In this document: one piece after another, positions 1-28,509 of the stretch
Layout of the letters: each line of letters starts with the position of its first letter
Numbering within the stretch: the first letter of the stretch is position 1
From: a virus
Direction: 5' to 3' (one strand)
IMG/VR virus record: IMGVR_UViG_3300032287_002747
Span: 1 to 28,509 of that record
Length of the DNA stretch: 28,509 nt
Notes under the pieces: generated by a model
Database searches by the model: none
The model's input: only the letters and a program-made list of their open reading frames with translations
What the model was told of the DNA's origin: nothing
Position numbers and translations under genes: made by a program

Positions 1-12
1 GTGTCGGAGCCA
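1..12. repeat. 12-bp terminal direct repeat, left copy
   Basis: The sequence GTGTCGGAGCCA is identical to the last 12 bases of the window and the identity stops exactly at 12. Joining the ends through it keeps a reading frame open. It may be an assembly overlap of a circular map or the duplicated 12-nt single strand of a cohesive end; it lies about 64 bp upstream of the terminase small-subunit start, the relative place of cos in lambda-like phages. Confidence 0.9.
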
Positions 13-557
13 CGCGGAGCCCGGGGGGGGTCAAAAGAGATGCCTTTAGGGGGAGGTTCTGGGGTGTGCGCCGCCGCGTCGAGCTGCGCCTGCACGCTGG
101 CCTGCCGCCGCTTGTCCACAAATGCCAGCATGCCCTTGGCTTGGATGCTGATGGCCTGCTTGGTCACGCCGAACATCTCGCCGATCTCCTTGCCGTTGAG
201 ATGACCAGGTGCCCGGAGGATGAGGCGCATGAGCTCCCAATGCCGGCGCACCCGAGGGTCCCGCGTGTAGCCAAGCATCTGCACCACGTCGTTGACGATG
301 TTGGCCACCTGCTCGCGGGAGATAAACTCATCCTGCTCGACGCGCACCTCGTTGGGCTTGTACGCCCAGATGGCCGCCTGCTCGTAGATTGGGAAGACAT
401 GGTCATGCGTGCGGGCTTCGCTGTAAGGGCCGGCGCCTTCCTCGCGCAGCTTGTCCTGCTGCACCTTGGGCAGGGACTTGAACCAGGCGTCATAGCGCTT
501 GGCGTGTTGGCGGTCCTCCTTGCTCGCCGCGTAGTCGAAGCCGTTGAGCCCGGGCAT
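1..557 (-). CDS. Helix-turn-helix protein upstream of terminase, N-terminal part (crosses the window junction)
   Basis: The gene starts at ATG 557-555, sharing one base with the TGA of the preceding gene (TGATG), and is still open at base 1. Continued from 28497 it ends at 28431, giving about 207 residues. Residues 1-115 are charged and probably helical. Residues about 121-145 (GKEIGEMFGVTKQAISIQAK) read as a helix-turn-helix of the sigma-region-4/recruitment type. The C-terminus from about 165 is a Pro/Arg/Lys-rich low-complexity tail. Family not recognised. DNA binding is inferred from the HTH. Its place next to terminase allows two roles: regulator of the late genes, or accessory packaging/cos-binding factor. 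Confidence 0.75.
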   Translation of the reverse strand, partial: MPGLNGFDYAASKEDRQHAKRYDAWFKSLPKVQQDKLREEGAGPYSEARTHDHVFPIYEQAAIWAYKPNEVRVEQDEFISREQVANIVNDVVQMLGYTRDPRVRRHWELMRLILRAPGHLNGKEIGEMFGVTKQAISIQAKGMLAFVDKRRQASVQAQLDAAAHTPEPPPKGISFDPPRAPRGSD

Positions 558-6562: not shown

Positions 6563-6976
6563 TCAGAAGGTATCGGGCGGGGTGAGCGTCTGGCCCTTCT
6601 TGGCCCAGGTCAGCTTGTACTTGTAGGTGGGCTGGCCGTCGCGGGGCTCGCCCGGGGTGACTTCGACGAGCGTCTCGGTGGTCTTGCCGGCGGCCTTGGA
6701 GACGTAGGCCACGTAGTCCTCGGGGGTCTGGCCGGCGAAGGCGCTGACGTACTGGCCGGACATCTTGCCGACCATCATGGCGAGGGAGTTGGCGTACTTG
6801 GTGCCGTAGGACTGGGACAGGCAGTTGCCTTCGGCGTCCATGAAGAAGACGCGGCAGGACATCGTGCCATCGTCCCAGGTGCGGACCTTCTCGACCTTGG
6901 GCTTGCTGACGCGGAGGTTGTAGATGCCGGTCTTCGTGATGGTCTTGAGGGCCGGGCGTTCGGGGGGCTGGTTCAT
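6563..6976 (-). CDS. Hypothetical protein, 137 aa, in the recombination block (possible ssDNA-binding role)
   Basis: ATG 6976-6974, 21 bp after the exonuclease stop, with a leader rich in ACCACCCAACC. Beta-rich N-terminal half (TKTGIYNLRVSKPKVEKVRT, then CRVFFMDAEGNCLSQSYGTK) followed by a helix and a basic C-terminal strand region (YKYKLTWAKKGQ). Small beta-rich proteins next to an exonuclease and kinase are often OB-fold or DUF669-like ssDNA-binding proteins, but no diagnostic motif is visible, so this is a guess from context. Confidence 0.7.
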   Translation of the reverse strand: MNQPPERPALKTITKTGIYNLRVSKPKVEKVRTWDDGTMSCRVFFMDAEGNCLSQSYGTKYANSLAMMVGKMSGQYVSAFAGQTPEDYVAYVSKAAGKTTETLVEVTPGEPRDGQPTYKYKLTWAKKGQTLTPPDTF

Positions 6977-9615: not shown

Positions 9616-10086
9616 TTAGTTGATGGCGCCACGGCGGGCGGCGTCCAGGATGAGCAGGGCGTCGGCGTTTGCCAGAGTCACCTTGAGCTCAGAGCCGAAG
9701 AGCTCGCCGGCGCGGGCCTTCAGTTTATTCTTCCAGGCGGTGGTGGTCAGGTCGCCCTTGGTGCCGACGGGGTGGGCCTTCTGCCAGATCGCGGGGCGGA
9801 CGCGGTGGACCTCCCAGCCGCAGGCCACGGCGGCGCCGTAAAGGACGCCGGTGTTCCACATCAGTTTGCCGATGGCCGAGCCGGGGATGTTGCGGCCCGC
9901 GTAGAGTGGGGGCTCTTCGAGGTATAGCACCACCTTGTTGGCCTTGGTCGTGATGTCGGCCACTAGCTTACAGACCTCCCAATCGGTGCCGGGCATGTTG
10001 TACGACTCCAGCCCGAGGTTGTCGTGGAAGGTGACGATGGCGCCGGAAACGCCGGGGTCCACGGCGACGAGCAAAGGCTTGTTCAT
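9616..10086 (-). CDS. RuvC-like Holliday junction resolvase, 156 aa
   Basis: ATG 10086-10084 overlaps the lysin stop (ATGA). RNase H-fold motifs: VAVDPGVSGAIVTF (D10), VVLYLEEPP (E57/E58) and the C-terminal NADALLILDAA (D142, D149), the acidic set of RuvC-type resolvases. GSAIGKLMWNTGVLYGAAVA matches the helix after the second acidic motif. Length agrees with phage RuvC-like proteins. It should cut branched DNA during recombination and before packaging. It marks the switch from lysis genes to DNA-metabolism genes although the transcript seems continuous. Confidence 0.85.
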   Translation of the reverse strand: MNKPLLVAVDPGVSGAIVTFHDNLGLESYNMPGTDWEVCKLVADITTKANKVVLYLEEPPLYAGRNIPGSAIGKLMWNTGVLYGAAVACGWEVHRVRPAIWQKAHPVGTKGDLTTTAWKNKLKARAGELFGSELKVTLANADALLILDAARRGAIN

Positions 10087-12394: not shown

Positions 12395-12684
12395 GAGATG
12401 CGGACGGGGGTGGTGTGCTTGCCCTGCACGATGCGGCGGTAGTTCTCCTGCCAGAGGACGGCCGACACCACCTTGCCGGCTCGGTCCACTTCCTTCTCGC
12501 TCATCTCGGGGAAGGCGATGTGCAGGGCTTCGTGGGCCAGCACCTCCAGCTCGCGGCGGGGCGAGAGGCGAGGGTCAATCTCGATGGTCGGATGATTGGG
12601 GTCGGTCTCCGCCTGCCCCCACGCGCGCTCCTTGCCGAGCGGACGCCAGATAACCTTAACCTTCTTTGCTTTCTTGCGCGGCAT
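12391..12684 (-). CDS. Small HExxH metallopeptidase-like protein, 97 aa
   Basis: Start chosen at ATG 12684-12682 (MPRKKAKKVKVIW), overlapping the lipoprotein gene by 29 bases; a longer in-frame start at 12735 lies deeper in that gene and is unlikely. A zinc-binding motif HEALH is at residues 51-55, preceded by ELEVLA and followed by IAFPEMSEKEVDRAGK, where E64 or D67 could be the third ligand, as in SprT-like and other small phage metallopeptidases. The N-terminus is basic. It sits inside the lysis cluster, coupled to the holin-like gene. Substrate unknown; no signal peptide, so it acts in the cytoplasm or after lysis. Confidence 0.75.
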   Translation of the reverse strand: MPRKKAKKVKVIWRPLGKERAWGQAETDPNHPTIEIDPRLSPRRELEVLAHEALHIAFPEMSEKEVDRAGKVVSAVLWQENYRRIVQGKHTTPVRIS

Positions 12685-13357
12685 CGGGGCAGGGAGGTTT
12701 GCGGAACTGCAGCCAACCGAAGACCAGGGCGACAAGGACCAGCACGCCCACGGCCGGCATGAAGTAGGGGGAGTTGAAGACGAAGGGCAGGGAGCCGATG
12801 GCGCCGCCGATCAGGAAGGCCGCACCCGCCCGGAGGTACTGCCCAAGGAGGGCCATGGCCAACGCCGCAAGGAAGCAGATGCCGGCGGCCACCGCGAAGG
12901 CGTTGCGGACCCCCTCCGTGCGGACCTGCTCGACCTCGGCCTTTAGCGCCGTGATCTGCTTGTTGGCGTTGTCCAGGGCGGCCTTGTTCTTGGCGGCGTC
13001 CTGCTCGGCCTTGGCGAAGTTGGCGTCGATGACGGCCAGCAGCTTGCGGCCAGCGTCCTCGGCCCGCTTGTACTCCTCGGCGTTCGCCCGGGCCACCCTG
13101 TTGCGCACGTAGTCGATGTGCTGCGCGTCGGCCTTGGGGAGGTAGGACGCGGCCACGCCGAGCTCGGCCTTCACGACCCCGGGCTTATCGGCGTTCTCGG
13201 AGGCCACCGCTATGCTGGCCGCCACCCGCTGGTCGGCCTTGTCGATTTGCGTGCCTAGCGTGCCGAGGTCCGCCGTGGGCGTGCCCGTGCCGGCGGTGTC
13301 AGGCGTAGGCGTGCACCCGGAGAAGGCCAGCAGGGTGATTACCAAAATCATGCGCAT
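12656..13357 (-). CDS. Multi-TM lipoprotein, possible unimolecular spanin-like protein, 233 aa
   Basis: ATG 13357-13355. The N-terminus MRMILVITLLAFSGC has a lipobox with C15. Residues about 85-150 are a long helical/coiled-coil segment (KAALDNANKQITALKAEVEQ), and hydrophobic helices follow at about 153-172, 177-194 and 199-217. Lipid anchor, periplasmic coil and C-terminal membrane helices together match the plan of a u-spanin linking outer and inner membranes, although known u-spanins have one C-terminal TM, not three. If so, the host is diderm. The alternative is a superinfection-exclusion lipoprotein. Confidence 0.72.
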   Translation of the reverse strand: MRMILVITLLAFSGCTPTPDTAGTGTPTADLGTLGTQIDKADQRVAASIAVASENADKPGVVKAELGVAASYLPKADAQHIDYVRNRVARANAEEYKRAEDAGRKLLAVIDANFAKAEQDAAKNKAALDNANKQITALKAEVEQVRTEGVRNAFAVAAGICFLAALAMALLGQYLRAGAAFLIGGAIGSLPFVFNSPYFMPAVGVLVLVALVFGWLQFRKPPCPDAAQESKEG

Positions 13358-16579: not shown

Positions 16580-16582
16580 CTT

Positions 16583-16595
16583 CTTAACCTTGGGC
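16583..16595 (-). promoter_or_regulatory. Leader motif upstream of the 104-aa tail gene
   Basis: Minus strand GCCCAAGGTTAAG, with AAGG ending 8 nt before the ATG at 16579. One of six copies of a recurrent element in front of structural genes. Confidence 0.6.
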
Positions 16596-16600
16596 GGGGG

Positions 16601-17407
16601 TTAAACCTGCACAGTCGCCGCGCTGGAGTCCTTGGTGTAACCCGACCAGGAGCCCAACCAGTCATTAAGCTGGGGCTCGTAGTTGGGGGTGTAGGGGGCG
16701 ATGTTGGCCACGTCCAGCCCCTGGAACTGAACGGGGTTGGCTAGGGATAGGGCGCCTAGGTGCATCTGCTCGACGACGAATGTGCCGCCCTCAAAGGTCA
16801 GGTCCGCGATCTTCCACTTCTGGCAGTTGTAGTTGTACTGCACAAGGGACCCGGTGTTCTGGATGGTCAGGTAGGTCGAGCCCGTGGGGGTCTCCACCTC
16901 AACCAATTCTTGGCTCTGGGTCTGGCGCACGATGATCTGCGGGTCGGAGCCGTTGAAGAAGTTGCTCTTGGTGTCGGCGTCGGAGCCGTCCGCGATGATG
17001 GCCAAGTAAGGCCAGAAGCCGTCCATGTCGCTCCCGCAGCCGATGATGTAGACGCCCCAATTGTCGGACCCGCCCTCGACGCTCGCCGGCTGGATCTGGA
17101 CGTACCCGCCCAAGTCAACCAGCGGAGACTCGGCCGCAGTGGCGAAAGGGCCGACAGTCTTGGAGCCGTCGGGGAAGCAGTAGTACTTCTGCACCTCGGC
17201 CTGCCAGCATCCCCACGACCAGGCGTCGGAGTTGCGGGAACTCGTGAAGCGCACAAACCCCTTGCGGCACTGCACCCCGTAGCCCGAGCCGGTCTTGATG
17301 ACAGTGACGCGGAACTGCTCCGGGTCGCCCGCGAGCTGCGGGTCGTCGATGGCCAGGGTGATGCCGGCCTGCCCGCTGGTCAGGTTATAGCCAAAGCCGG
17401 GTTGCAT
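16601..17407 (-). CDS. Putative distal tail protein, 268 aa
   Basis: Start taken at ATG 17407-17405 (MQPGFGYNLTSGQAG), sharing one base with the preceding stop (TGATG). An in-frame ATG at 17437 adds ten residues but overlaps the upstream gene. Beta-rich, aromatic- and Cys-containing protein (SDAWSWGCWQAEVQKYYCF; GVYIIGCGSDMDGFWPYLAI), soluble, without signal or TM. No family recognised. Its place between tape measure and fibre makes a tail-tip or baseplate role likely. Confidence 0.72.
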   Translation of the reverse strand: MQPGFGYNLTSGQAGITLAIDDPQLAGDPEQFRVTVIKTGSGYGVQCRKGFVRFTSSRNSDAWSWGCWQAEVQKYYCFPDGSKTVGPFATAAESPLVDLGGYVQIQPASVEGGSDNWGVYIIGCGSDMDGFWPYLAIIADGSDADTKSNFFNGSDPQIIVRQTQSQELVEVETPTGSTYLTIQNTGSLVQYNYNCQKWKIADLTFEGGTFVVEQMHLGALSLANPVQFQGLDVANIAPYTPNYEPQLNDWLGSWSGYTKDSSAATVQV

Positions 17408-18288
17408 CAGAGCTCGGGATTGACTGCTCCGACCCATCCCTCGGCGTTGAAGCGGATGGTGTAGTTGATTTTCTTTACGTTCAGGCCGAAGTCCTCAAAG
17501 TTGACGCTGGCCAGCAGGAGCTGCGGAAGCGCGGTTCCCGAGCCAATTGGCGTGCTCAAGAAGGTCGAGCCAAGGTACTCGGGCAAAAGGTATGGCAGGT
17601 TGCCATCCCAGTTGCGAGTGCTCGACGAACGGCCTACGGCGTTTTGCATTTCGATAACGATGTCGCTGTCCGTGGTATAGATTACGCCGGAATAACCAGT
17701 CTGCGGGGCGAGGTAGGACTTGCGCCCATAGTAAAGGGGATACTGCGGGTCGAGGAAGCCTACGAATTGGCCACCCGTCTTCTGGGTGAAGTGCGCCCCG
17801 TTGGCACCTTTGTACAGGGTCGCCGCGTCGCTTGTCTTGGCTTTGAAGGTGCTTGCCTCGTAGATCGGGGCAGTGGCAGTCCCGGTGCCGACGCCTGCAA
17901 TGGCCTCAGCGCCAATCGTAGCTACAAAGAAGTTGGGGTGTGTCTCAATTCCCTCGCTCGACGTGCTCACGGCGCCGCTGACGTTGGGGCTAGTCGTATT
18001 AGATGTAGCCCCTTCCGCCGTGTTATTGATGCCGACGTAATCGATGGTTACGTTGGCAATTCCGTTTCGGTCATAGGAAACCGAAAAGGTGTTGCTGAAC
18101 ATATACGTGTCAAAGGGCTCGACGGGATGCGGAAGCCCGCGCTCAAAGTCGGCCACGTTGACGGCGTAGGACTTGTCCATCTTGTACATGCAACGCCCGG
18201 TGAATAGGCCGTAGCCGTCCTGCTGGATGGTCCAGCCTGGCTGGAGTACGGGGGAAGATAGGTCGTTGCCTTTGTCGATGCGTGCCAT
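17407..18288 (-). CDS. Putative tail tip protein, 293 aa
   Basis: ATG 18288-18286, one base after the tape-measure stop. Beta-rich with Gly, Ser, Thr and aromatic residues (YGLFTGRCMYKMDKSYAVNV; NTFSVSYDRNGIANVTIDYV; LLASVNFEDFGLNVKKINYT). Thr/Ser-rich stretch at about 90-110. No enzymatic motif. Follows the tape measure, the place of distal tail (Dit-like) proteins; homology cannot be confirmed by eye. Base composition is visibly less GC-biased in parts than in neighbouring genes. Confidence 0.72.
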   Translation of the reverse strand: MARIDKGNDLSSPVLQPGWTIQQDGYGLFTGRCMYKMDKSYAVNVADFERGLPHPVEPFDTYMFSNTFSVSYDRNGIANVTIDYVGINNTAEGATSNTTSPNVSGAVSTSSEGIETHPNFFVATIGAEAIAGVGTGTATAPIYEASTFKAKTSDAATLYKGANGAHFTQKTGGQFVGFLDPQYPLYYGRKSYLAPQTGYSGVIYTTDSDIVIEMQNAVGRSSSTRNWDGNLPYLLPEYLGSTFLSTPIGSGTALPQLLLASVNFEDFGLNVKKINYTIRFNAEGWVGAVNPEL

Positions 18289-18289
18289 G

Positions 18290-19105
18290 TTAAGCGGTAT
18301 GGGTATAGTCCTTGTAGTTGACCTGGGAGGCCATGCCCCCCGTCTGGTCCTTGGTGAAGTCGCCCGGGCCGCCGGCGGAGGCCGCGATCACCGCCAAGTA
18401 CTCGTTGGCCTGCTTCTGCAGTTCGACCTGCTGGTTGAGGATGTTCATCTGCGGGGAGTTGCCGATGCCGAAGACGCTGTTGTCGCCGGTGAACATGCCG
18501 GGCGGGGTGGCGCTCTTCTTCTTATCCTCCTCTGTCTTGGCCTTCTCGGCCGCAAGGGCCTTCTTCATGTCCTCCTGCACAATCTTGAAGACGTCCTCCT
18601 GGACGCCACGGAAGCGGGAAAACTCCTTCTCCGACATGGAGAAGCCGCCCGTCTCGGTGTCGATGCCTACGTTCTTTCGGAAGTACTCCTGGCCTCGGGG
18701 GTCGCGCTTGAGGAACTCCTCGACGACAACGCGCTTGGCCAGCTCCGCCTTCTTCTGCTCCTCCTCCGTGCGGATGTCCACCTGCAGCTTTTGGGCCATG
18801 TAGCGGGTAGTCTGTTCGACGGGGGACTTGTTCACGTCCTCAAACTTGACGCCGGCGGCGAAGTCCACCGCATCCTTGGCGTCCTGCCGCGCCTTCTCGA
18901 TGGACTGGCTGATGAAACCGATAGCCTCGCGGATGAGCACCATCGGCGCAAGGAAGCCCAGGAACAGGTCCTTGCCGATTTCGGTGAACTTCTTGCCGAT
19001 GGCGGCCGTCTGCTTGTCCAGTTCCGACATGGCCTTCTTGGCCTTCTCGGTCTGCTGTGGGACGTCGGACGTGCCCTTGATTTGGTATTCTACGACTTGG
19101 GCCAT
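18290..19105 (-). CDS. Short tape measure protein candidate, 271 aa
   Basis: ATG 19105-19103, with the CCCAAGGTTGAAGA variant of the leader motif. Predominantly alpha-helical and charged: KAKKAMSELDKQTAAIGKKF at the N-terminus, one hydrophobic segment (LFLGFLAPMVLIREAIGFIS, about 47-66) and a Lys/Glu-rich helix (DMKKALAAEKAKTEEDKKKS, about 180-200). Position after tube and chaperone candidates and the N-terminal pattern are those of tape measures. At about 0.15 nm per residue it predicts a tail near 40 nm, far below lambda. It could instead be an internal or neck protein if this phage is not a siphovirus. Confidence 0.68.
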   Translation of the reverse strand: MAQVVEYQIKGTSDVPQQTEKAKKAMSELDKQTAAIGKKFTEIGKDLFLGFLAPMVLIREAIGFISQSIEKARQDAKDAVDFAAGVKFEDVNKSPVEQTTRYMAQKLQVDIRTEEEQKKAELAKRVVVEEFLKRDPRGQEYFRKNVGIDTETGGFSMSEKEFSRFRGVQEDVFKIVQEDMKKALAAEKAKTEEDKKKSATPPGMFTGDNSVFGIGNSPQMNILNQQVELQKQANEYLAVIAASAGGPGDFTKDQTGGMASQVNYKDYTHTA

Positions 19106-19113
19106 GGGTAGGT

Positions 19114-19126
19114 CTTCAACCTTGGG
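19114..19126 (-). promoter_or_regulatory. Leader motif upstream of the tape measure gene
   Basis: Minus strand CCCAAGGTTGAAG, one mismatch from the common form; it overlaps the stop codon of the chaperone candidate. Confidence 0.5.
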
Positions 19127-19655
19127 AAGTCGTAAAGGCCGCCATGGCCTCCTCCTCCTCCGTGGTCATCACGTTGACCTCGACCCCCTTGAGCCCGGAG
19201 AAGGCCGTGCTCATCCAGATGGCCTGACACTCGGGCATCTCCCACGCCCGCTTCTCGTCGATGCCGTTGGCGATCAGGTTGGCCACCACGTTGATGGCCC
19301 AGGGCATGCCCGTGCCGGTGGCCTTCTTGTTCTGGTCCGTCTCCCAAAACTTGGGCCAGTGCCCTTCCAGCATGTAGGTGCGGAAGTCCTGCGCCGTCTT
19401 GATGAACAGGTCGTCGTCCCTCTGAAGCCTCACCAGCGTGGCCTTGTCCTTGCCGGTGATGTCGTCCAGCGGAAGCTCCGCGCACGTCTTGATGGCGGCC
19501 AGCAGGTGCGAGAGGGTCATGTCCCCGGGCACGACGTAGGGCGACCCGATGGCGTGCAGGCGCACGCGGTACTTCAGGCAGAAGGGATAAACGACGTAGC
19601 CCAGGATGTTAACCTGGGCCGGGTCGGTGAAGGCGTTGATGAAGCGGGCGTCCAT
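19116..19655 (-). CDS. Putative tail assembly chaperone, 179 aa
   Basis: ATG 19655-19653. Largely helical, acidic C-terminus (MTTEEEEAMAAFTTSQG), with a region typical of small helical chaperones (LSHLLAAIKTCAELPLDDIT). It lies directly before the tape measure, where gpG-type chaperones are encoded. No slippery heptamer giving a longer -1 product was found, so a lambda-like G/GT frameshift is not supported. Its last codons contain the leader motif of the next gene. Assignment is by position. Confidence 0.65.
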   Translation of the reverse strand: MDARFINAFTDPAQVNILGYVVYPFCLKYRVRLHAIGSPYVVPGDMTLSHLLAAIKTCAELPLDDITGKDKATLVRLQRDDDLFIKTAQDFRTYMLEGHWPKFWETDQNKKATGTGMPWAINVVANLIANGIDEKRAWEMPECQAIWMSTAFSGLKGVEVNVMTTEEEEAMAAFTTSQG

Positions 19656-19666
19656 GCCCGCTAGTC

Positions 19667-20041
19667 TTAGACGTAGGACGCGATGGAATCAAGCTGGCGG
19701 AACTTGATGCTGACCCGGACGAAGTCCTTGTTGGAACCCTTCTCCGAGACACCTTCGATCACCCCGTTGACCTCGTTGGAGGGGCCCGTGTCGGTCTTCA
19801 GCTTCACAGTGATGGCCGCGCCAATCTCGGGCATGTCGGCCGTCTTGGCGATGCCTTCAACAGTGCCCGTCCGCTCGGGGTTGTCGTAGCGCAGGGTGAC
19901 AGTCTTGCCGTCCTCGTCGGGGGCCTTGTCGTTGAGCTCGAAAACCTTGTCGCAGGACACCGACTGGCAGAGGAAGTTGGAGATGCCCGACTGAACGGCC
20001 ACCCCGAAGAGTACAGTCACGCCTTTGAGTACAGCAGCCAT
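19667..20041 (-). CDS. Putative tail tube-like protein, 124 aa
   Basis: ATG 20041-20039 preceded by CCCAAGGTTAAGAACTACCT. Beta-rich: KGVTVLFGVAVQSGISNFLC, then GKTVTLRYDNPERTGTVEGI, GAAITVKLKTDTGPSNEVNG and DFVRVSIKFRQLDSIASY. Gene order (terminator, this gene, chaperone, tape measure) is that of tail tubes. It is shorter than lambda gpV (246 residues), which may fit a very short tail, but identity is by context. Confidence 0.62.
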   Translation of the reverse strand: MAAVLKGVTVLFGVAVQSGISNFLCQSVSCDKVFELNDKAPDEDGKTVTLRYDNPERTGTVEGIAKTADMPEIGAAITVKLKTDTGPSNEVNGVIEGVSEKGSNKDFVRVSIKFRQLDSIASYV

Positions 20042-20049
20042 AGGTAGTT

Positions 20050-20062
20050 CTTAACCTTGGGC
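20050..20062 (-). promoter_or_regulatory. Leader motif upstream of the tail tube candidate
   Basis: Minus strand GCCCAAGGTTAAG, AAGG 13 nt before the ATG at 20041, inside a 27-bp intergenic gap. Confidence 0.6.
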
Positions 20063-20068
20063 GGGTGG

Positions 20069-20506
20069 TCAAGGCGCCAGGACGCACACCACCGAAAGGC
20101 GCAGGACAGTGGCCCACGACCCCGTCTGCTCGTCCAGCCCCTGATCTTCAGACACCACAGTCACGTCGTAGAGCAGGGCGTCGCCCTGGGTGGCGAACTG
20201 GGAGGTCATCGCGTCAAGGTCGGCCAGCGTGGCGACCATGGCGGCGGCCCGGGCTCGGTGGGTGGTCAGGGTGACGTCGTTGGCGTTGTCGTGCAGGACG
20301 CAGCGGACCTGGCAGTCGTAGTTGCCCAAGCCGTCGGGAAGGCCGTTGGGGGTGTTGGCCGAGTCGCAGACCACGACCACCTTGGGCATCACCGCGTCGG
20401 CCGTGCTGTCGCCCGGGTAGATGTTCACGGCGCTGAAGGTCGCTTCGGCCTGAAGCATGGCGACGAGGTTGCCCTCGACGATGTGGCGGATGGATGAGGT
20501 GCCCAT
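20069..20506 (-). CDS. Putative tail terminator / completion protein, 145 aa
   Basis: ATG 20506-20504, four bases after the preceding stop. Alpha/beta mix with central strands (MPKVVVVCDSAN; GNYDCQVRCVLHDNANDVTL) and a C-terminal strand VLRLSVVCVLAP, the general layout of gpU/gp17-like completion proteins. Position between a gp10/gpZ-like protein and the tube candidate supports this. Confidence is in the position more than in sequence homology. Confidence 0.65.
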   Translation of the reverse strand: MGTSSIRHIVEGNLVAMLQAEATFSAVNIYPGDSTADAVMPKVVVVCDSANTPNGLPDGLGNYDCQVRCVLHDNANDVTLTTHRARAAAMVATLADLDAMTSQFATQGDALLYDVTVVSEDQGLDEQTGSWATVLRLSVVCVLAP

Positions 20507-20510
20507 GGGG

Positions 20511-21497
20511 TTAAGACTTTGCGTTATTGTTGAAATCGTCCACGTCCTTCTTCAGGCGGCGGGCAAGGTCAAGGTGCAGCTGTTTGTAGCGCAGGCCAAT
20601 GACAGTCTCCTTCACGTCCGCTTCTGTGCTGACGTTGTTCATGTCGGCGATGCCGTTCCCGATGATCAGGTTGAGGTTGGACGGGGTTTCGTTAAAGTTG
20701 AAATACCCAGCATTGCCGGCGTGGACCTTGATGTAGTTGGCGATGCCACCCGTGCCGAAGTTCGTCTTGCCCTCGCGGGAGGAAGGCTTGGGCAGGCCCA
20801 TCAGAATCTTATACCAGCCGGCCTTCAGGCGCCCGACCTTGGGGGTGCGGCTGGCGATGTACTCTTTGATTTCCTCGTCCGTCTCGACGAGGATCTTGTC
20901 GCGCCAGTTGGTCAGGGGCTGGAAGGGCTTCCCGTTCTGCTTAAAGCGGCCGCCAGCCTTAGCCAGGAGCATCTTGTGCACGGGGCGCAGGTCGCGCTGG
21001 TAGCCCAGGGTGCCGTACTCGGTGCTGCGCAGCTGGGAGCGGTTAAAGTAGTTCTTGGCCTTCTTGAAGGCACGCTCGTCGTCGTAGTCGTTGGCGATGG
21101 CCTGCAGGATACGGGTGCCGCGCTTCAGCGCCGTGCGGGCCGCGCCGTCGAGCAGGGCCCGAAACTCCGCCGGGTTGCCGTTCCTGGTCGAGTAGGCCAG
21201 CTTCTTGGTGAGGATGAGCAAAGGGGCGATGCCCTTGCGGTTGTCGGCCGCCACGTAAATCTTCCGCACGTCCGCCGCGATGGCCCGCTTGCCGGCCTTC
21301 TCGCCCGTCACAGTCAGGCCCCCCTTGCCGCCGGCGCCCATCGGGGGAGTCAGCATGATGGAGTCGCGGCACATCAGGGCGGCGTTCTTTAGGCCGATGT
21401 CCTTGATGGTTTCGCGGCAGGCAAAGGCGTAGCGGGTCATGGCCTCCTGGAATTGGGCCATGCTCTTCGGGCCGACAGTTAGCCGGACATTAATCAC
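20511..21497 (-). CDS. Minor tail / neck protein, gpZ- or HK97 gp10-like, 328 aa
   Basis: GTG 21497-21495 overlaps the preceding TGA (GTGA). The N-terminal part MINVRLTVGPKSMAQFQEAM and the basic, mixed alpha/beta body with KRAIAADVRKIYVAADNRKG resemble large minor tail proteins found between head connectors and the tail terminator. C-terminal helix KQLHLDLARRLKKDVDDFNN. No enzymatic motif or membrane segment. Likely forms part of the head-tail junction. Confidence 0.68.
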   Translation of the reverse strand: MINVRLTVGPKSMAQFQEAMTRYAFACRETIKDIGLKNAALMCRDSIMLTPPMGAGGKGGLTVTGEKAGKRAIAADVRKIYVAADNRKGIAPLLILTKKLAYSTRNGNPAEFRALLDGAARTALKRGTRILQAIANDYDDERAFKKAKNYFNRSQLRSTEYGTLGYQRDLRPVHKMLLAKAGGRFKQNGKPFQPLTNWRDKILVETDEEIKEYIASRTPKVGRLKAGWYKILMGLPKPSSREGKTNFGTGGIANYIKVHAGNAGYFNFNETPSNLNLIIGNGIADMNNVSTEADVKETVIGLRYKQLHLDLARRLKKDVDDFNNNAKS

Positions 21498-21877
21498 TGG
21501 TTGAGCAGGATGACCTGCAGAGTCACCCAGGCGCTCGGGCGCTTGTGGGTCTGGCTTACGATCCGCAGGCTCTTCCCGTCTACGGCAATTACTTTGCCAA
21601 TCCCTAGGGAGGCGATGGGGGTCTGGTCCACGACGATGGCCGCCGAGGCCCCATTAGACCCGTCTGGGAGGCTCCAGGAGGCCGTTGCAGCGGGGATGCG
21701 GACAGAGTGCTGGGTCCGGTCCACAAAGCCCCCCTCTTGGAAGGACTGCGTCACCATCGGGTCGGAGATCAGGCAATGGAAGGTGATGGCCCCCGCGTTG
21801 CACGACCCGGACACCCCGAAGTCGGCCACCATCAGCTTGGCGTCGTCGAGAAAGGTGCCGTCAGCGTAAAGGCTCAT
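21494..21877 (-). CDS. Putative head-tail connector, 127 aa
   Basis: ATG 21877-21875 with leader CCCAAGGTTAAGACGAAC, downstream of the capsid terminator. Beta-rich sequence (LMVADFGVSGSCNAGAITFH; SAAIVVDQTPIASLGIGKVI; SLRIVSQTHKRPSAWVTLQV) of the size of head-completion or connector proteins. Immediate position after major capsid and before a minor tail/neck gene supports the role. Family not identified. Confidence 0.65.
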   Translation of the reverse strand: MSLYADGTFLDDAKLMVADFGVSGSCNAGAITFHCLISDPMVTQSFQEGGFVDRTQHSVRIPAATASWSLPDGSNGASAAIVVDQTPIASLGIGKVIAVDGKSLRIVSQTHKRPSAWVTLQVILLNQ

Positions 21878-21883
21878 GTTCGT

Positions 21884-21895
21884 CTTAACCTTGGG
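21884..21895 (-). promoter_or_regulatory. Leader motif upstream of the head-tail connector gene
   Basis: Minus strand CCCAAGGTTAAG, AAGG 11 nt before the ATG at 21877, directly after the capsid terminator, so a new transcript or a fresh ribosome entry at this point would make sense. Confidence 0.6.
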
Positions 21896-21903
21896 ATGAG
21901 GTC

Positions 21904-21933
21904 AAAAAAAAGGGGCCCCCGTTAGGGAGCCCC
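21904..21933 (-). terminator. Intrinsic terminator downstream of major capsid gene
   Basis: On the minus strand GGGGCTCCC-TAAC-GGGGGCCCC forms a 9-bp stem (one T-G wobble) with a 4-nt loop, followed at once by eight T. It lies 23 bp after the capsid stop and ends just before the leader of the next gene. This is the best terminator in the window and would trim capsid mRNA relative to the downstream tail genes, or partly terminate to set head:tail ratios. Confidence 0.9.
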
Positions 21934-21956
21934 AGTCGTCGGCGCTTGGCCCGCTA

Positions 21957-22823
21957 TTAGGCGGACTTGATGCGGCGGAGGTTCGAGCGGCCCTTGGCAG
22001 CACCGAAGCGGATGGCCGCGGTGAGGTAGAGGATGCCGCCCGTGTATTCGGACTCGACCAGGACGGAGAGACCGCCGGAGGTGGCGACGCCGGAGTTCGG
22101 GGCCATGGACCAGACCGAGCCGGTGCCGATGCAGATGGCGTCCTTGGCGGCCGCGAAGCCGACGAGGTTTTCGCCGTTGGCCGGAAGGCCGGCGTACTGC
22201 ATGACCTGCAGGGTGCCGATCTGGCCGACGATGCCCGTGCGGACGACGCTGTTGTTGCCCTGGGTGTTGAACGCCGAGGTCAGCTTGGCGTCCTTGCGGA
22301 GCGCGCCGATGTAGGAGGAGTTGAGGACGAGGCCGCGCTGTTCCGGGGCGAGCAGGTCGTCGAGGGCGGTGTCGAGGTCAACCACGTCATTGTAGTCGAA
22401 GTCGGCGGCGGCGATGACGATGTTGCTGGAGTAGTTCGCGTTGGTCACGAGGGCGGCAACGGCGGCGTTGGCGCGCTTCACGATCTTGGCGACGGCCTCT
22501 TCGCGGAAGGCGTTGATGACACCCTCGGCACCCCAAGCGGCGAGCTCGGAAGCGTCGAAGCTGCGGGTGGCGTGGTAGTGGACCAGGTTCACCGAAGCCT
22601 TGGTGATGTCGGCGTCGCCGGTCTGGCGGTAGCCGCCGTCAGCCTTGGAGAAGGTGATCGCGTCGTCGCCCGCCACGAAGGGGACGTCGATGGTGATGCC
22701 GCGGTCCTCGGTGCTCTGCGCGAGGGTCGTGAACATGTCGAGGACGGGGAGCTTCGGGCGCAGGTCGGCGACGATGATGTCAGCGAGAGCGGCCGGGGCG
22801 ATGTCGAAACCGGAGTTAGCCAT
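21957..22823 (-). CDS. Major capsid protein, HK97-fold candidate, 288 aa
   Basis: ATG 22823-22821, leader CCCTACTAATCACACCT. Starts MANSGFDIAPAALADIIVAD; contains VDLDTALDDLLAPEQRGLVL, ENLVGFAAAKDAICIGTGSV and a C-terminal strand GGLSVLVESEYTGGILYLTA, in line with the E-loop/P-domain/A-domain order of HK97-type coats. Residues RSFDASELAAWGAEG resemble the capsid spine-helix entry. Length and position after portal, protease and scaffold candidate are as expected. It builds the icosahedral head. Confidence 0.82.
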   Translation of the reverse strand: MANSGFDIAPAALADIIVADLRPKLPVLDMFTTLAQSTEDRGITIDVPFVAGDDAITFSKADGGYRQTGDADITKASVNLVHYHATRSFDASELAAWGAEGVINAFREEAVAKIVKRANAAVAALVTNANYSSNIVIAAADFDYNDVVDLDTALDDLLAPEQRGLVLNSSYIGALRKDAKLTSAFNTQGNNSVVRTGIVGQIGTLQVMQYAGLPANGENLVGFAAAKDAICIGTGSVWSMAPNSGVATSGGLSVLVESEYTGGILYLTAAIRFGAAKGRSNLRRIKSA

Positions 22824-22865
22824 AGGTGTGATTAGTAGGGATTAGGGATGAATGAGGGGGAAAGG

Positions 22866-23291
22866 TTACTTGACGCGGCCAAAGAGGATGGCGGCCTTGT
22901 GCTTCTGCAGGAAGGCCACGCGCTCGGCGCCGGGCTTCATCGCGGCATACTGCTCGCGGACCTGCTCGACAGTGAGGGCGGGGGCTTCGGCCTTCTCGGC
23001 GGCCACGGGGGTCGTGCCGGTGGAGGCGACGATCTCGGCGGCCTGCTTGGCGGCGGAGACGTGGGTCAGTTCCAGGGCGGCGACCTTCTCGGCGAGGGCG
23101 GCGACTTCGGCGGTGAGTTCGCCGATGCGGGCATCCTTGGAAGCAATGTCAGCCTTGGCGGCGGACAGTTCGTCGGCGGCGCCGACAGTCAGCTTCTCGA
23201 CAGTGGCACGCAGGTCGTCGCGCTCAGTCGTGAGGGCGAGGGCAACAGTGCGCAGCTCGGAGAGTTCAGCCTCGGGAGTCAGTTTGCTCAT
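22866..23291 (-). CDS. Coiled-coil protein, probable scaffold, 141 aa
   Basis: ATG 23291-23289, leader motif variant CCAAGTTTAAGAA. Residues 5-85 are nearly continuous heptads (LTTERDDLRATVEKLTVGAA; SKDARIGELTAEVAALAEKV), then an Ala/Pro-rich linker and a C-terminal helix (GAERVAFLQKHKAAILFGRV). Scaffolding proteins of HK97-fold phages are often such coils encoded between protease and capsid, with the C-terminal helix docking to capsid. No decoration-protein signature. Confidence 0.72.
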   Translation of the reverse strand: MSKLTPEAELSELRTVALALTTERDDLRATVEKLTVGAADELSAAKADIASKDARIGELTAEVAALAEKVAALELTHVSAAKQAAEIVASTGTTPVAAEKAEAPALTVEQVREQYAAMKPGAERVAFLQKHKAAILFGRVK

Positions 23292-23296
23292 GTGTT

Positions 23297-23308
23297 CTTA
23301 AACTTGGA
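23297..23308 (-). promoter_or_regulatory. Leader motif variant upstream of the scaffold candidate
   Basis: Minus strand TCCAAGTTTAAG, two changes from the common form, upstream of the ATG at 23291. Confidence 0.45.
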
Positions 23309-23322
23309 GATGTGGTCAAAGG

Positions 23323-24117
23323 TCAGAAGGCGGCGAGGGCCTCTTCAAACGAGTCGGCCAGCCCGGTGACGAGCCCAAGGCGCACGGCCTCGCGGCCTGA
23401 GAAGGTGCCGCCGGTGAAGGCGTCCTGCGAGACGTTGACACGGGTGGCCTTCACGGACTCCTGGAAGTCCTGGGCGATGCCGTCAACCTGGCGCTGGAGG
23501 TCGGCCACTTGGGCCTCGGTAAGGGACGTGCCCTCGATGCCTGCACCCTTGAGCGGGGACTGGCTGGACTTGATGACCACCATCCGCACGCCTGCGTCGG
23601 CGTAAGCCTTGGAGTAGTCAGGCACGACCATGTAGACGCCCACGCTGCCGATGGAGCCCGAAGGCATCGCGACGAAACGATCGGCGGCGGCGGCCAGCCA
23701 CAGGGCGGCCGAGTTTGCTTCCTCGCCGTAGGCCATCGTGGGCTTCTTCATGCGGCGCATCTTGTTGGCGAGCTCAGGCACTCCGGCGACAGTCCCGCCC
23801 GGGGAGTTGACGCGGAAGGCAATCTTCTTCACGGCCGGGTCGGCCTCCATCTCGTCGATAGCCTTGGAGATGGCCAGCACGTCGGCGGCGCCAAGCATGC
23901 CCTCAAGGGGCGAGATGCCGCGCCCAATCGGGCCATCGATCGGGATGACGCCCTTGCCGTCGGGGGTAACGTAAGCCTCCGGGCGGGCGCCCAGGAGCTT
24001 CGACAGCACGTCGGAGAAGCCGTACTTGTCCAGGCGGCCGGCGTAGTCGCTGGCCTTGGTGGGGTCGATAAGCAGGGGCTCAAGGCCCTTGAGGCCGTTG
24101 GAGAAGATGAGTTTCAT
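23323..24117 (-). CDS. Capsid maturation protease, S49/SppA-ClpP-like (lambda gpC type), 264 aa
   Basis: ATG 24117-24115, three bases after the portal stop. Family segments: IAFRVNSPGGTVAGVPEL (99-116), the catalytic region GEEANSAALWLAAAADRFVA (131-150, with S136 as probable nucleophile) followed by PSGSIGSVGVY (152-162), and VVIKSSQSPLKGAG (180-193) with K183 a candidate general base. It should cleave scaffold and/or portal during prohead maturation. Unlike gpC it has no visible scaffold (Nu3-like) C-terminal extension, consistent with a separate scaffold gene downstream. Confidence 0.88.
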   Translation of the reverse strand: MKLIFSNGLKGLEPLLIDPTKASDYAGRLDKYGFSDVLSKLLGARPEAYVTPDGKGVIPIDGPIGRGISPLEGMLGAADVLAISKAIDEMEADPAVKKIAFRVNSPGGTVAGVPELANKMRRMKKPTMAYGEEANSAALWLAAAADRFVAMPSGSIGSVGVYMVVPDYSKAYADAGVRMVVIKSSQSPLKGAGIEGTSLTEAQVADLQRQVDGIAQDFQESVKATRVNVSQDAFTGGTFSGREAVRLGLVTGLADSFEEALAAF

Positions 24118-24120
24118 GGG

Positions 24121-25689
24121 TTAAGAGTTGGGTTCTTCTTCGGAGTCGTCTTCCATGTCGTCGCTTTCTTCGGGGACGGCCGACGTGCCGGACTCCGCTT
24201 CGTCCTCGGCCTCGTCCTCTGGGCTTTCTTCCGCTTCCTTGGCGGGGGCCTGCATGTTGGCGAAGCGCTGCATGGCCTCCTCAAAGGCCACCTTGCCGGC
24301 GGTTGCGGCGGTCACTTCCTTGGCGTAGAGGATGTCCTCGACGAGCTCGGAGAAGGTCTTGCGGAAGTCGCCGCCCCGCTTCTTGGCGATTGCGGAAAAG
24401 GACGTCAGGCCGGCACGCAGGTCCTCGCGGTCATTCGCGCTGTCGCGGCCGTTGTCGATGCTGGGGCTCTGGGGAACGCTGAACTCCACGTCCGCCCACT
24501 TCGGGTCGTCGGGAAGTTCGCCGGCGGCGATGGCCGAGCCGATGCGCCACTGCCAGTCTGGGATGAGGTAGCAGTCGTGAAGCATGCACTGCTTGTCGCC
24601 GACGTAGCGGTCCGCCTTGCCGAGCACCATGCGTACTAGGGCGGAACCCGCCTTGCTGCCGTCGTTTACCACCTCGTAGGGTAGGCCACCCGCCGCGATC
24701 ATGCGGGCAAGCACCGCGTTAAACATCTCCATGCTCTGGCGCGGGAAGTTGGGGGCAACGCTCTTCAGGTCTTCCCCTGGTTCCAGCACCAGGAGCTTGC
24801 CGCCCATCTGGGCGCCGATGTTGCCGAAGTCCGACGACGCGGTGCCGTTCAGGTCGGCCGCCATGCTGTCGTCGATAGCCCCGCCGTTCTTGGTGAGGAT
24901 GGAAGGCACGTCCGTGACCTGCTTCGTCGCACGCTTCTCGAGCTCGATGATCTCGGTCTGGTCCTGCATCGAGTTCAGAGCGTGGGCCATCGGGGGCAGG
25001 CCGTGGGCGCCGCTCGCCCGCTTGAAGTCGGCGATGTGGAAATAGGTGCCGGACTTCTTGAGCTCGTACTGTCCCTCGCCGAACTGCACCCAGATGCCGA
25101 TGACCTCGCCGTACTTGCCGAAGACGAAGCCGTCCCACGTGTCGGGGGTCACTTGGTTGGGCATCGTCGGGTTGACCACCCGGTGGCCTTCGATGATCTG
25201 CGTGGTCGCCTTGCCCTGGGCATCGGTGACCTTGAGGGCGAAGACCTCGCCGTCCACCGCCCAGGTGTTGACGATGATGCGCTGGAGCTGCTCGCCCGTG
25301 TAGCGGCCGGTGATGTCGGCCTTGCGCGTGGCGCGGTAGTAGTAGTCCTCGTAAAGGCGGGCCTTCACAGGGTCGGACGCGTGGCTCGTAGGCTTGGAGC
25401 CGTCCCCGACCACGTACATCACCATGTCGTTGACGTACTGCACCATGGACGGGTAATTCTTCTCCGCGTAGCGAGCCTTCTGCAGCAGTGACTGGCGATC
25501 GTACTGGCTCACGTCCTTGCGGGCGTCCTGCGGCGTCGAGCCGTACCAGGCGCGGCGGGCAAACGACATCCCCGCGTTCTGGAAGTTCGACGACCAAGCC
25601 TGCGCGGCCTGCGCCTTCGGAACCCCCTGCGCGCCGGCGGCGGGCTTCGGAACTTCGACGGCCTTGATGGTCTTCTTGCGGGGGGGCAT
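24121..25689 (-). CDS. Portal protein, lambda gpB family, 522 aa
   Basis: ATG 25689-25687. Core segments of the lambda portal family: QSLLQKARYAEKNYPSMVQY near residue 65, EGHRVVNPTMPNQVTPDTW, GEVIGIWVQFGEGQYELKKS, QTEIIELEKRATKQVTDVPS and YEVVNDGSKAGSALVRMVLG. The C-terminus is strongly acidic (EESPEDEAEDEAESGTSAVP, then DDMEDDSEEEPNS) and probably disordered. Forms the dodecameric vertex through which TerL pumps DNA and to which the connector binds. Starts four bases after the gpW-like stop. Confidence 0.88.
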   Translation of the reverse strand: MPPRKKTIKAVEVPKPAAGAQGVPKAQAAQAWSSNFQNAGMSFARRAWYGSTPQDARKDVSQYDRQSLLQKARYAEKNYPSMVQYVNDMVMYVVGDGSKPTSHASDPVKARLYEDYYYRATRKADITGRYTGEQLQRIIVNTWAVDGEVFALKVTDAQGKATTQIIEGHRVVNPTMPNQVTPDTWDGFVFGKYGEVIGIWVQFGEGQYELKKSGTYFHIADFKRASGAHGLPPMAHALNSMQDQTEIIELEKRATKQVTDVPSILTKNGGAIDDSMAADLNGTASSDFGNIGAQMGGKLLVLEPGEDLKSVAPNFPRQSMEMFNAVLARMIAAGGLPYEVVNDGSKAGSALVRMVLGKADRYVGDKQCMLHDCYLIPDWQWRIGSAIAAGELPDDPKWADVEFSVPQSPSIDNGRDSANDREDLRAGLTSFSAIAKKRGGDFRKTFSELVEDILYAKEVTAATAGKVAFEEAMQRFANMQAPAKEAEESPEDEAEDEAESGTSAVPEESDDMEDDSEEEPNS

Positions 25690-25692
25690 AAA

Positions 25693-25953
25693 TTAGAAGC
25701 TGCGCGCGTCCCAACGGACGGCCACGACAGAAGTCCGGCGGAAGGCCGCGTACTGCTGAGGGTCGAGGTTGTACAGGGCATAGCCGACCTCGTCCAACAT
25801 CTCCTTCGGAGGGAGGGCCCACTGCTTGGAGACGCTCGACCCCGAGTCGGAATAAGACACCACGTTCAAACCCTGAGTGATCGCGGCGACGGCCTTGGCC
25901 TTGATGGCCAGCAGCTCGTCTTCCGTAAGTCCGATGAATAGTCCTTGGGCCAT
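25693..25953 (-). CDS. gpW-like head-tail joining protein, 86 aa
   Basis: ATG 25953-25951 with leader CCCAAGGTTAAGAACTGACC. Helical N-terminus TEDELLAIKAKAVAAITQGL and a C-terminal helix EMLDEVGYALYNLDPQQYAA, the size and position (between TerL and portal) of lambda gpW. The middle (SYSDSGSSVSKQWALPP) is a short loop. It should plug the portal after packaging. Confidence 0.7.
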   Translation of the reverse strand: MAQGLFIGLTEDELLAIKAKAVAAITQGLNVVSYSDSGSSVSKQWALPPKEMLDEVGYALYNLDPQQYAAFRRTSVVAVRWDARSF

Positions 25954-25961
25954 GGTCAGTT

Positions 25962-25974
25962 CTTAACCTTGGGC
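25962..25974 (-). promoter_or_regulatory. Leader motif upstream of the gpW-like gene
   Basis: Minus strand GCCCAAGGTTAAG, AAGG 13 nt before the ATG at 25953 and downstream of the 11-bp stem at 25989-26065. Confidence 0.6.
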
Positions 25975-25988
25975 TGGGGGTAAAGAGG

Positions 25989-28434: not shown

Positions 28435-28509
28435 TTTTTGCGGGGGGCTCGGTCAACCGATGAAATTCGCGGAAAAGAGGCTCTTTTTTTGGACGGGGTG
28501 TCGGAGCCA
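28431..28509 (-). CDS. Helix-turn-helix protein upstream of terminase, C-terminal part (continuation of 1..557)
   Basis: This is the 3' end of the junction-spanning gene. With the 12-bp repeat collapsed, the codon made of bases 2, 1 and 28497 leads into a basic tail ending in RAPRKK and a TGA at 28433-28431. That stop overlaps the terminase small-subunit ATG (28434-28432) as ATGA, the coupling used throughout this genome, which supports the reading. An A7 run (28490-28484, minus strand) and an A6 run next to the stop lie in this tail and would be sensitive to sequencing indels. Confidence 0.7.
   Translation of the reverse strand, partial: GSDTPSKKRASFPRISSVDRAPRKK
28498..28509. repeat. 12-bp terminal direct repeat, right copy
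   Basis: Exact copy of bases 1-12. Because 12 is a multiple of three, the frame across the junction stays open whether the two copies are collapsed (207-residue product) or both kept (211 residues), so the frame proves the ends join but does not say how many copies exist in the virion. Confidence 0.9.

Follow-up and report, generated by a model that had tools for sequence, protein, structure and literature searches.

The virus record IMGVR_UViG_3300032287_002747 of IMG/VR, analysed here over its entire 28,509 bases (the window), has its genes on the - strand, and six of its virion genes are directly preceded by a short recurrent sequence element, which is the subject of this work. PHROGs profiles identify, from right to left, the small terminase (terS), large terminase, portal, maturation protease and major capsid protein genes followed by tail genes, with replication genes in the left part of the window. 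By portal protein, the nearest named phages include Verrucomicrobia phage P8625 and Akkermansia phage Moulinsart (~23% identity); no isolate of the window's own family was found. A search of GTDB genomes for portal relatives found none; a contig of the window's phage family (L167) lies within the Opitutae metagenome-assembled genome (MAG) UppL6_bin-0046, which hints at the host group. The near-complete relative G008 (28,411 bases) begins and ends midway through the late region, holds a gene set of the same kind and carries the gene for a helix-turn-helix (HTH) protein contiguous with, and directly upstream of, terS. For this reason the window is probably a complete genome of ~28.5 kb, opened between the HTH gene and terS.

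A preliminary description of this DNA had reported the recurrent motif before six structural genes, and it is present at all six (Table 1), although the copy before the gene at 21877 is not exact, carrying two mismatches to GCCCAAGGTTAAGAA. With up to three mismatches allowed, GCCCAAGGTTAAGAA matches seven times in the window against 0.46 expected, a count reached in 0 of 100 shuffles, and its core CCAAGGTTAAG has four exact copies, all on the - strand. The distances from AAGG to ATG at the six starts are 8, 13, 11, 10, 14 and 13 nt, in agreement with the range of 8 to about 14 nt given before. The motif is the 3' half (box B) of a larger unit: 5-6 nt upstream of each of the six copies lies a second conserved box (box A), TT[T/G/A]AC[C/G] (TTTAAC at g104), and together they form a bipartite element of 22-23 nt, in the window TT[T/G/A]AC[C/G], 5-6 nt, CCAAG[G/T]TT[A/G]A.., with the family consensus TTNACC-N5/6-CCAAG[G/T][T/G]TA[A/G]G. 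The motif had also been said to occur nowhere else in the same orientation, which is too strict, since there are two more partial - strand matches (457-471 and 6888-6902); both lie inside open reading frames (ORFs), code for ..PKV.. and lack box A.

Among relatives, the arrangement is strictly maintained. The window and 51 contigs linked to it by their portal proteins (485 kb of relatives) contain 113 coding-strand copies of box B. Every one of the 113 follows a box A and is itself followed, at 11-20 nt, by an ORF start, and there are 68 distinct versions of the element among them. The other strand of the same contigs holds no box B so arranged, only a single unrelated near-match. In G002 and G003, additional CCAAGGTTAAG copies lie away from starts and have no box A. 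A scan of IMG/VR with the pattern TTKACCN6CCAAGKKTARGA returned 104 stretches, mostly from the window's phage family and before the same gene families; in the family contigs the element stands at the same genes even where the proteins are 36-60% identical, whereas chance matches, in contigs without homologues, are mostly away from starts. Of eight loci given by a pattern scan of genomes, seven had no phage homologues and are apparently chance matches. The element is thus nearly restricted to this phage family, where it was found in over a hundred related contigs, and the enrichment at orthologous genes that the preliminary description had set as a test is clear. A host-encoded signal was considered and rejected: the Opitutae MAG containing the phage contig has its only exact match on that phage contig.

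Table 1 Features of the window; box A, spacer and box B of each element are separated by hyphens
Feature	Position	Strand	Sequence	Match to GCCCAAGGTTAAGAA	Remarks
Element before g86 (start 25953)	25962..25984	-	TTTACC-CCCAGC-CCAAGGTTAAG	25960-25974, exact	Orthologous copies known
Element before g141 (start 23291)	23297..23319	-	TTGACC-ACATCT-CCAAGTTTAAG	23295-23309, 3 mismatches	
Element before g127 (start 21877)	21884..21905	-	TTGACC-TCATC-CCAAGGTTAAG	21882-21896, 2 mismatches	Begins at end of terminator T-run
Element before g124 (start 20041)	20050..20072	-	TTGACC-ACCCGC-CCAAGGTTAAG	20048-20062, exact	TGA of box A is the g145 stop codon
Degenerate element before g271 (start 19105)	19114..19136	-	TTTACG-ACTTC-CCAAGGTTGAAG	19114-19125, more degenerate	Overlaps end of upstream ORF
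Element before g104 (start 16579)	16583..16605	-	TTTAAC-CCCCGC-CCAAGGTTAAG	16581-16595, exact	TAA is the upstream gene's stop codon
Candidate degenerate seventh site, terS leader	28435..28456	-	TTGACCGAGCCCCCCGCAAAAA, then ATG		Box B not conserved; uncertain
Gene of HTH protein, candidate reader	3..557	-			Cut by left end of window
Intrinsic terminator	21904..21933	-			9-bp stem, T8; between major capsid gene and g127 element

Besides relatives with the spelling described above (type I), a second clade (type II) carries TTCCAA-N4/7-GCA before the same genes, with TACCAA or TGCCAA at g127 and sometimes with a box B resembling that of type I (GCAAGTTTAA); a pattern scan recovered the type II element at g124 in many more family contigs. 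Contigs with at least two typed sites were uniformly type I in 90 cases, uniformly type II in 43 and mixed in 4, counts that include duplicate loci, the 4 mixed cases being two distinct short metagenome contigs that each appear twice. These two (L039 and L038) are either recombinants or chimeric assemblies. The spelling thus switches genome-wide, and such concerted change at separate sites argues for a shared trans-acting reader. The mosaicism of these genomes might instead suggest that the elements are conserved linkers for modular recombination between phages, with no role in expression, but this would not account for an element built of two boxes, for its strict confinement to starts or for the joint change of all its sites, and we find it scarcely credible.

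The HTH protein is a candidate for the reader. Its length is ~180-200 amino acids, and its C-terminal part contains a helix-turn-helix (type I, LNGKEIGEMFGVTKQAISIQAKGML; type II, LDSRTIGKMHGISHFTMRYRARKIM) whose proposed recognition helix differs by type (TKQAISIQAK versus SHFTMRYRAR). The type of this protein coincided with that of the elements in 25 of 25 distinct records (8 type I and 17 type II). We further scored the similarity of each protein to the window as a normalised bit score in 12 near-complete or long records. The clearest case was G008, whose elements are of type I although the majority of its proteins, among them the large terminase (0.90), capsid (0.90) and portal (0.73), lie nearer to type II genomes; only three of its 34 proteins are nearer to type I genomes, namely the HTH protein (0.54 versus 0.22 for type II), a lipoprotein-like protein (0.48 versus 0.20) and g124 (0.64 versus 0.51). 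The lipoprotein-like gene (12659-13357, in the lysis region) follows the element type in G008 for no obvious reason; as a potential reader it was discarded, being discordant in 3 of 29 typed contigs.

We weighed whether the element acts in RNA, as a start-associated sequence (SAS) in the leader that the ribosome or a translation factor recognises and that marks starts beyond the reach of translational coupling. Every element sits at a start, and the starts that have one are almost precisely those for which translational coupling is not possible: nearly all starts at least 18 nt from the upstream stop have one, the major capsid gene being the exception, and starts within 11 nt of it have none, the exception being g271. 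Published SAS were read as translational from evidence of the same kind (PMC3203893). Against such a signal stand the major capsid gene, the sole far-spaced virion gene without an element, and g271, which keeps its element although in many genomes its start lies 1 nt from the upstream stop; moreover, the spacing from box B to ATG is 0-9 nt in type I and longer at some type II sites, the distance from element to ATG differs even within single gene families, and the genome-wide switch follows an HTH-type protein. Nor is there extended Shine-Dalgarno complementarity, the core G varying by gene. We consider an RNA-level start signal rather unlikely, though it ranks second among the readings.

The preliminary description had also offered a ribosome entry element, which is now disfavoured. 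Only AAGG resembles a Shine-Dalgarno sequence, and its second G is replaced throughout the type I g141 family, by T in most orthologs and by A in a few. Shine-Dalgarno pairing was rejected because this core G varies, a judgement made without the host 16S rRNA itself, with AAGG at most available to pair. An RNA hairpin, CUUGACC-N9/10-GGUUAAG, that sequesters or exposes the start is likewise very unlikely. Seven pairs are possible in 34 of 105 distinct elements and the mean minimum free energy is -3.66 versus -2.26 for simple shuffles, but the arms do not covary (the mean number of paired positions equals that of randomly re-matched arms), the g141 variants lose a pair without any change of the partner C, and the stem is absent from type II elements. 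A search of the element against Rfam returned no family.

Action on DNA is favoured because of the HTH co-variation, the variable distance to ATG, the retention at g271 and the arrangement at g127. There, the strong terminator that follows the capsid gene ends at the element in type I, leaving little room for another promoter, and type II genomes have a different terminator at the same place, again before the g127 element. A parallel comes from the cultured relative P8625 (L151), in which TTG[A/C]CA-N17-TAT[T/C][G/T]G-N7-ATG stands at four late genes (5412, 9620, 10736 and 15558), at a fixed 36 nt to the ATG; one site directly follows a terminator and another is at the gene before the portal. 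If used as promoters, these would yield leaderless mRNA. The P8625 genome paper makes no mention of promoters or terminators, and a search of P8625 for a homologue of the HTH protein found none. The annotated TTG start of P8625 gp13 (9620) is probably wrong, an ATG at 9656 fitting instead.

Two conventional promoter types were tried at the elements and rejected. A sigma70 promoter finds no -35/-10 hexamers 16-18 nt apart there. A T7/T3-like promoter, suggested by a resemblance by eye (TTAACCC..AAGG), would call for a phage-encoded single-subunit RNA polymerase, and no unassigned ORF of that size exists in the window or in near-complete G008; the variation of the spacing between box A and box B by 1 nt among g127 orthologs also counts against it. 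A search with PF00940 was silent, as was its control.

From these results, we propose that a bipartite DNA site of 22-23 nt, TTNACC-N5/6-CCAAGKKTARG, abutting the starts of a fixed set of virion genes, would be bound by the phage HTH protein, the gene of which closes the early region directly upstream of terS. The bound protein would recruit or modify the host RNA polymerase, and late transcripts would then begin near each start codon with very short leaders devoid of a Shine-Dalgarno sequence. Of the options named in the preliminary description, a late promoter giving short-leader mRNAs is the best-supported candidate, by the terminator at the g127 element, the HTH co-variation and the P8625 elements; a site for a translational regulator, another of those options, is a less favoured possibility. 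We rank first, and give about an even chance, the reading of the element as the DNA site of a phage-encoded late regulator, a compact promoter or activator site producing very short leaders.

Several observations weigh against this proposal. The element always lies within ~20 nt of the start codon, which fits a translation signal equally well, and no known promoter architecture matches it. A sigma70 scan of the late region gave one match on the + strand and none at the elements; were transcription to start in sigma70 fashion, 36 nt after box A, it would begin within the gene. Clade structure makes most other genes correlate with element type too, and g124, g179, g271, the protease and two small early genes show zero discordance as well; because so many genes track the type through shared ancestry, the link between HTH protein and element rests largely on G008. 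Models of the HTH fold are poor, with a predicted local distance difference test score (pLDDT) of 50.5 for type I and 61.4 for type II. Pfam gave only sub-threshold MarR_2/HTH_11 matches for type I members, the other matches being to non-regulators, and no match for the type II protein scanned.

The structural comparison of the HTH protein brings in a further alternative. While the type I model was too poor for use, the type II AlphaFold2 model (mean pLDDT 61, ~70-85 in the HTH region) had as its top match AlpA in an AlpA-loaded complex (Z 6.7, weak), and matched many sigma region 4 chains at Z 3.8-4.8, also weakly and from a low-confidence model. No arpU, rinA or sigma family was among the Pfam matches of the protein, and Sigma70_r4 was absent from those at E ≤ 1. 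The resemblance to AlpA or sigma region 4 may serve as a lead only. With AlpA as the top match and a terminator within the late region, the HTH protein could be a repressor, a roadblock or a Q/AlpA-like antiterminator rather than an activator of initiation, and the element its operator or stoperator-like site; the asymmetry and single orientation of the element and its putative phage HTH reader would agree with this. Confinement of the sites to late gene starts, a Z score below 8 and the low confidence of the model speak against it, and we judge it distinctly improbable.

Some features outside the elements also deserve mention. The window is cut (at 1 and 28509) between the HTH gene and terS, and the contigs of many relatives also stop nearby; the terS leader contains an A/T-rich inverted repeat, and the window ends may be a genome end or a packaging site. 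Between 14000 and 28509, virion genes lacking the element begin mostly a few nt after the upstream stop, e.g. TAACCC-ATG, which suggests widespread translational coupling and little use of Shine-Dalgarno sequences among them. The major capsid gene leader (22824-22865) is nearly G-free and CCTAA-rich in all relatives, and is perhaps an unstructured ribosome-loading leader.

In its full form, our proposal is of a late-transcription system not described before, in phages of Opitutae, in which a small sigma-4-like or AlpA-like protein would read a 22-nt start-abutting promoter at about six virion genes, protein and site switching specificity together between clades. We advance this tentatively, as possible rather than probable. 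The analysis also gives an initial look at how late genes are controlled in Verrucomicrobiota phages.

Phage sigma factors of the T4 gp55 or SPO1 gp28 kind serve many dispersed late promoters. Here too, one phage factor would act at many cognate sites before late genes, but the HTH protein has no sequence match to a sigma family and its resemblance to sigma region 4 is weak and structural. The sigma70-like elements of P8625 likewise precede late genes but differ in spelling (TTGACA-N17-TATTGG-N7-ATG), and no HTH homologue was found to go with them. Late regulators encoded directly upstream of terS, RinA and Ltr, are established in staphylococcal phages (PMC13123087), and the HTH gene resembles theirs in position, as its contiguity with terS in G008 illustrates. 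The target of RinA and Ltr is a promoter that precedes the terminase genes, with repeats upstream of the start site, whereas the present element stands right before each of about six late genes; the HTH protein also lacks a Pfam match to the RinA, Ltr and ArpU families. The stoperators of Cluster A mycobacteriophages (PMC3203893, PMC4351075) are likewise asymmetric and oriented with transcription, but are not tied to start codons, where all window elements lie.

The closest parallel in arrangement is with the SAS and extended SAS (ESAS) of Cluster K mycobacteriophages and Cluster EF Microbacterium phages (PMC3203893, PMC7302621). These are also short asymmetric repeats directly before starts, mostly in one orientation, at a subset of genes and at the same gene families across genomes; the upstream gene's stop codon sometimes falls within the repeat, and a second upstream feature has subgroup-specific spelling. 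There is no sequence similarity, the window element lacking the consensus GGGATAGGAGCCC or GGGAAAGGACCCC, and it is also without the Shine-Dalgarno core by which the Cluster K SAS pairs with 16S rRNA. It further differs in having fewer copies (6), in being limited to virion genes and in a spelling that co-varies with a candidate protein. When the SAS of actinobacteriophages was described in 2011, neither a function nor a reader was given for it (PMC3203893), and as late as 2020 its role was termed unclear (PMC7302621). Should our proposal be correct, other phage start-associated sequences may prove to be promoter or regulator sites instead of translation signals. Since a signal of this kind is joined here by a candidate for its reader and by a swap of specificity that occurred in nature, the question is open to simple binding and reporter tests. 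The Cluster K authors had considered the upstream feature a possible target of DNA-binding proteins that differ in specificity (PMC3203893), and the window's phage family supplies a candidate for such a protein.

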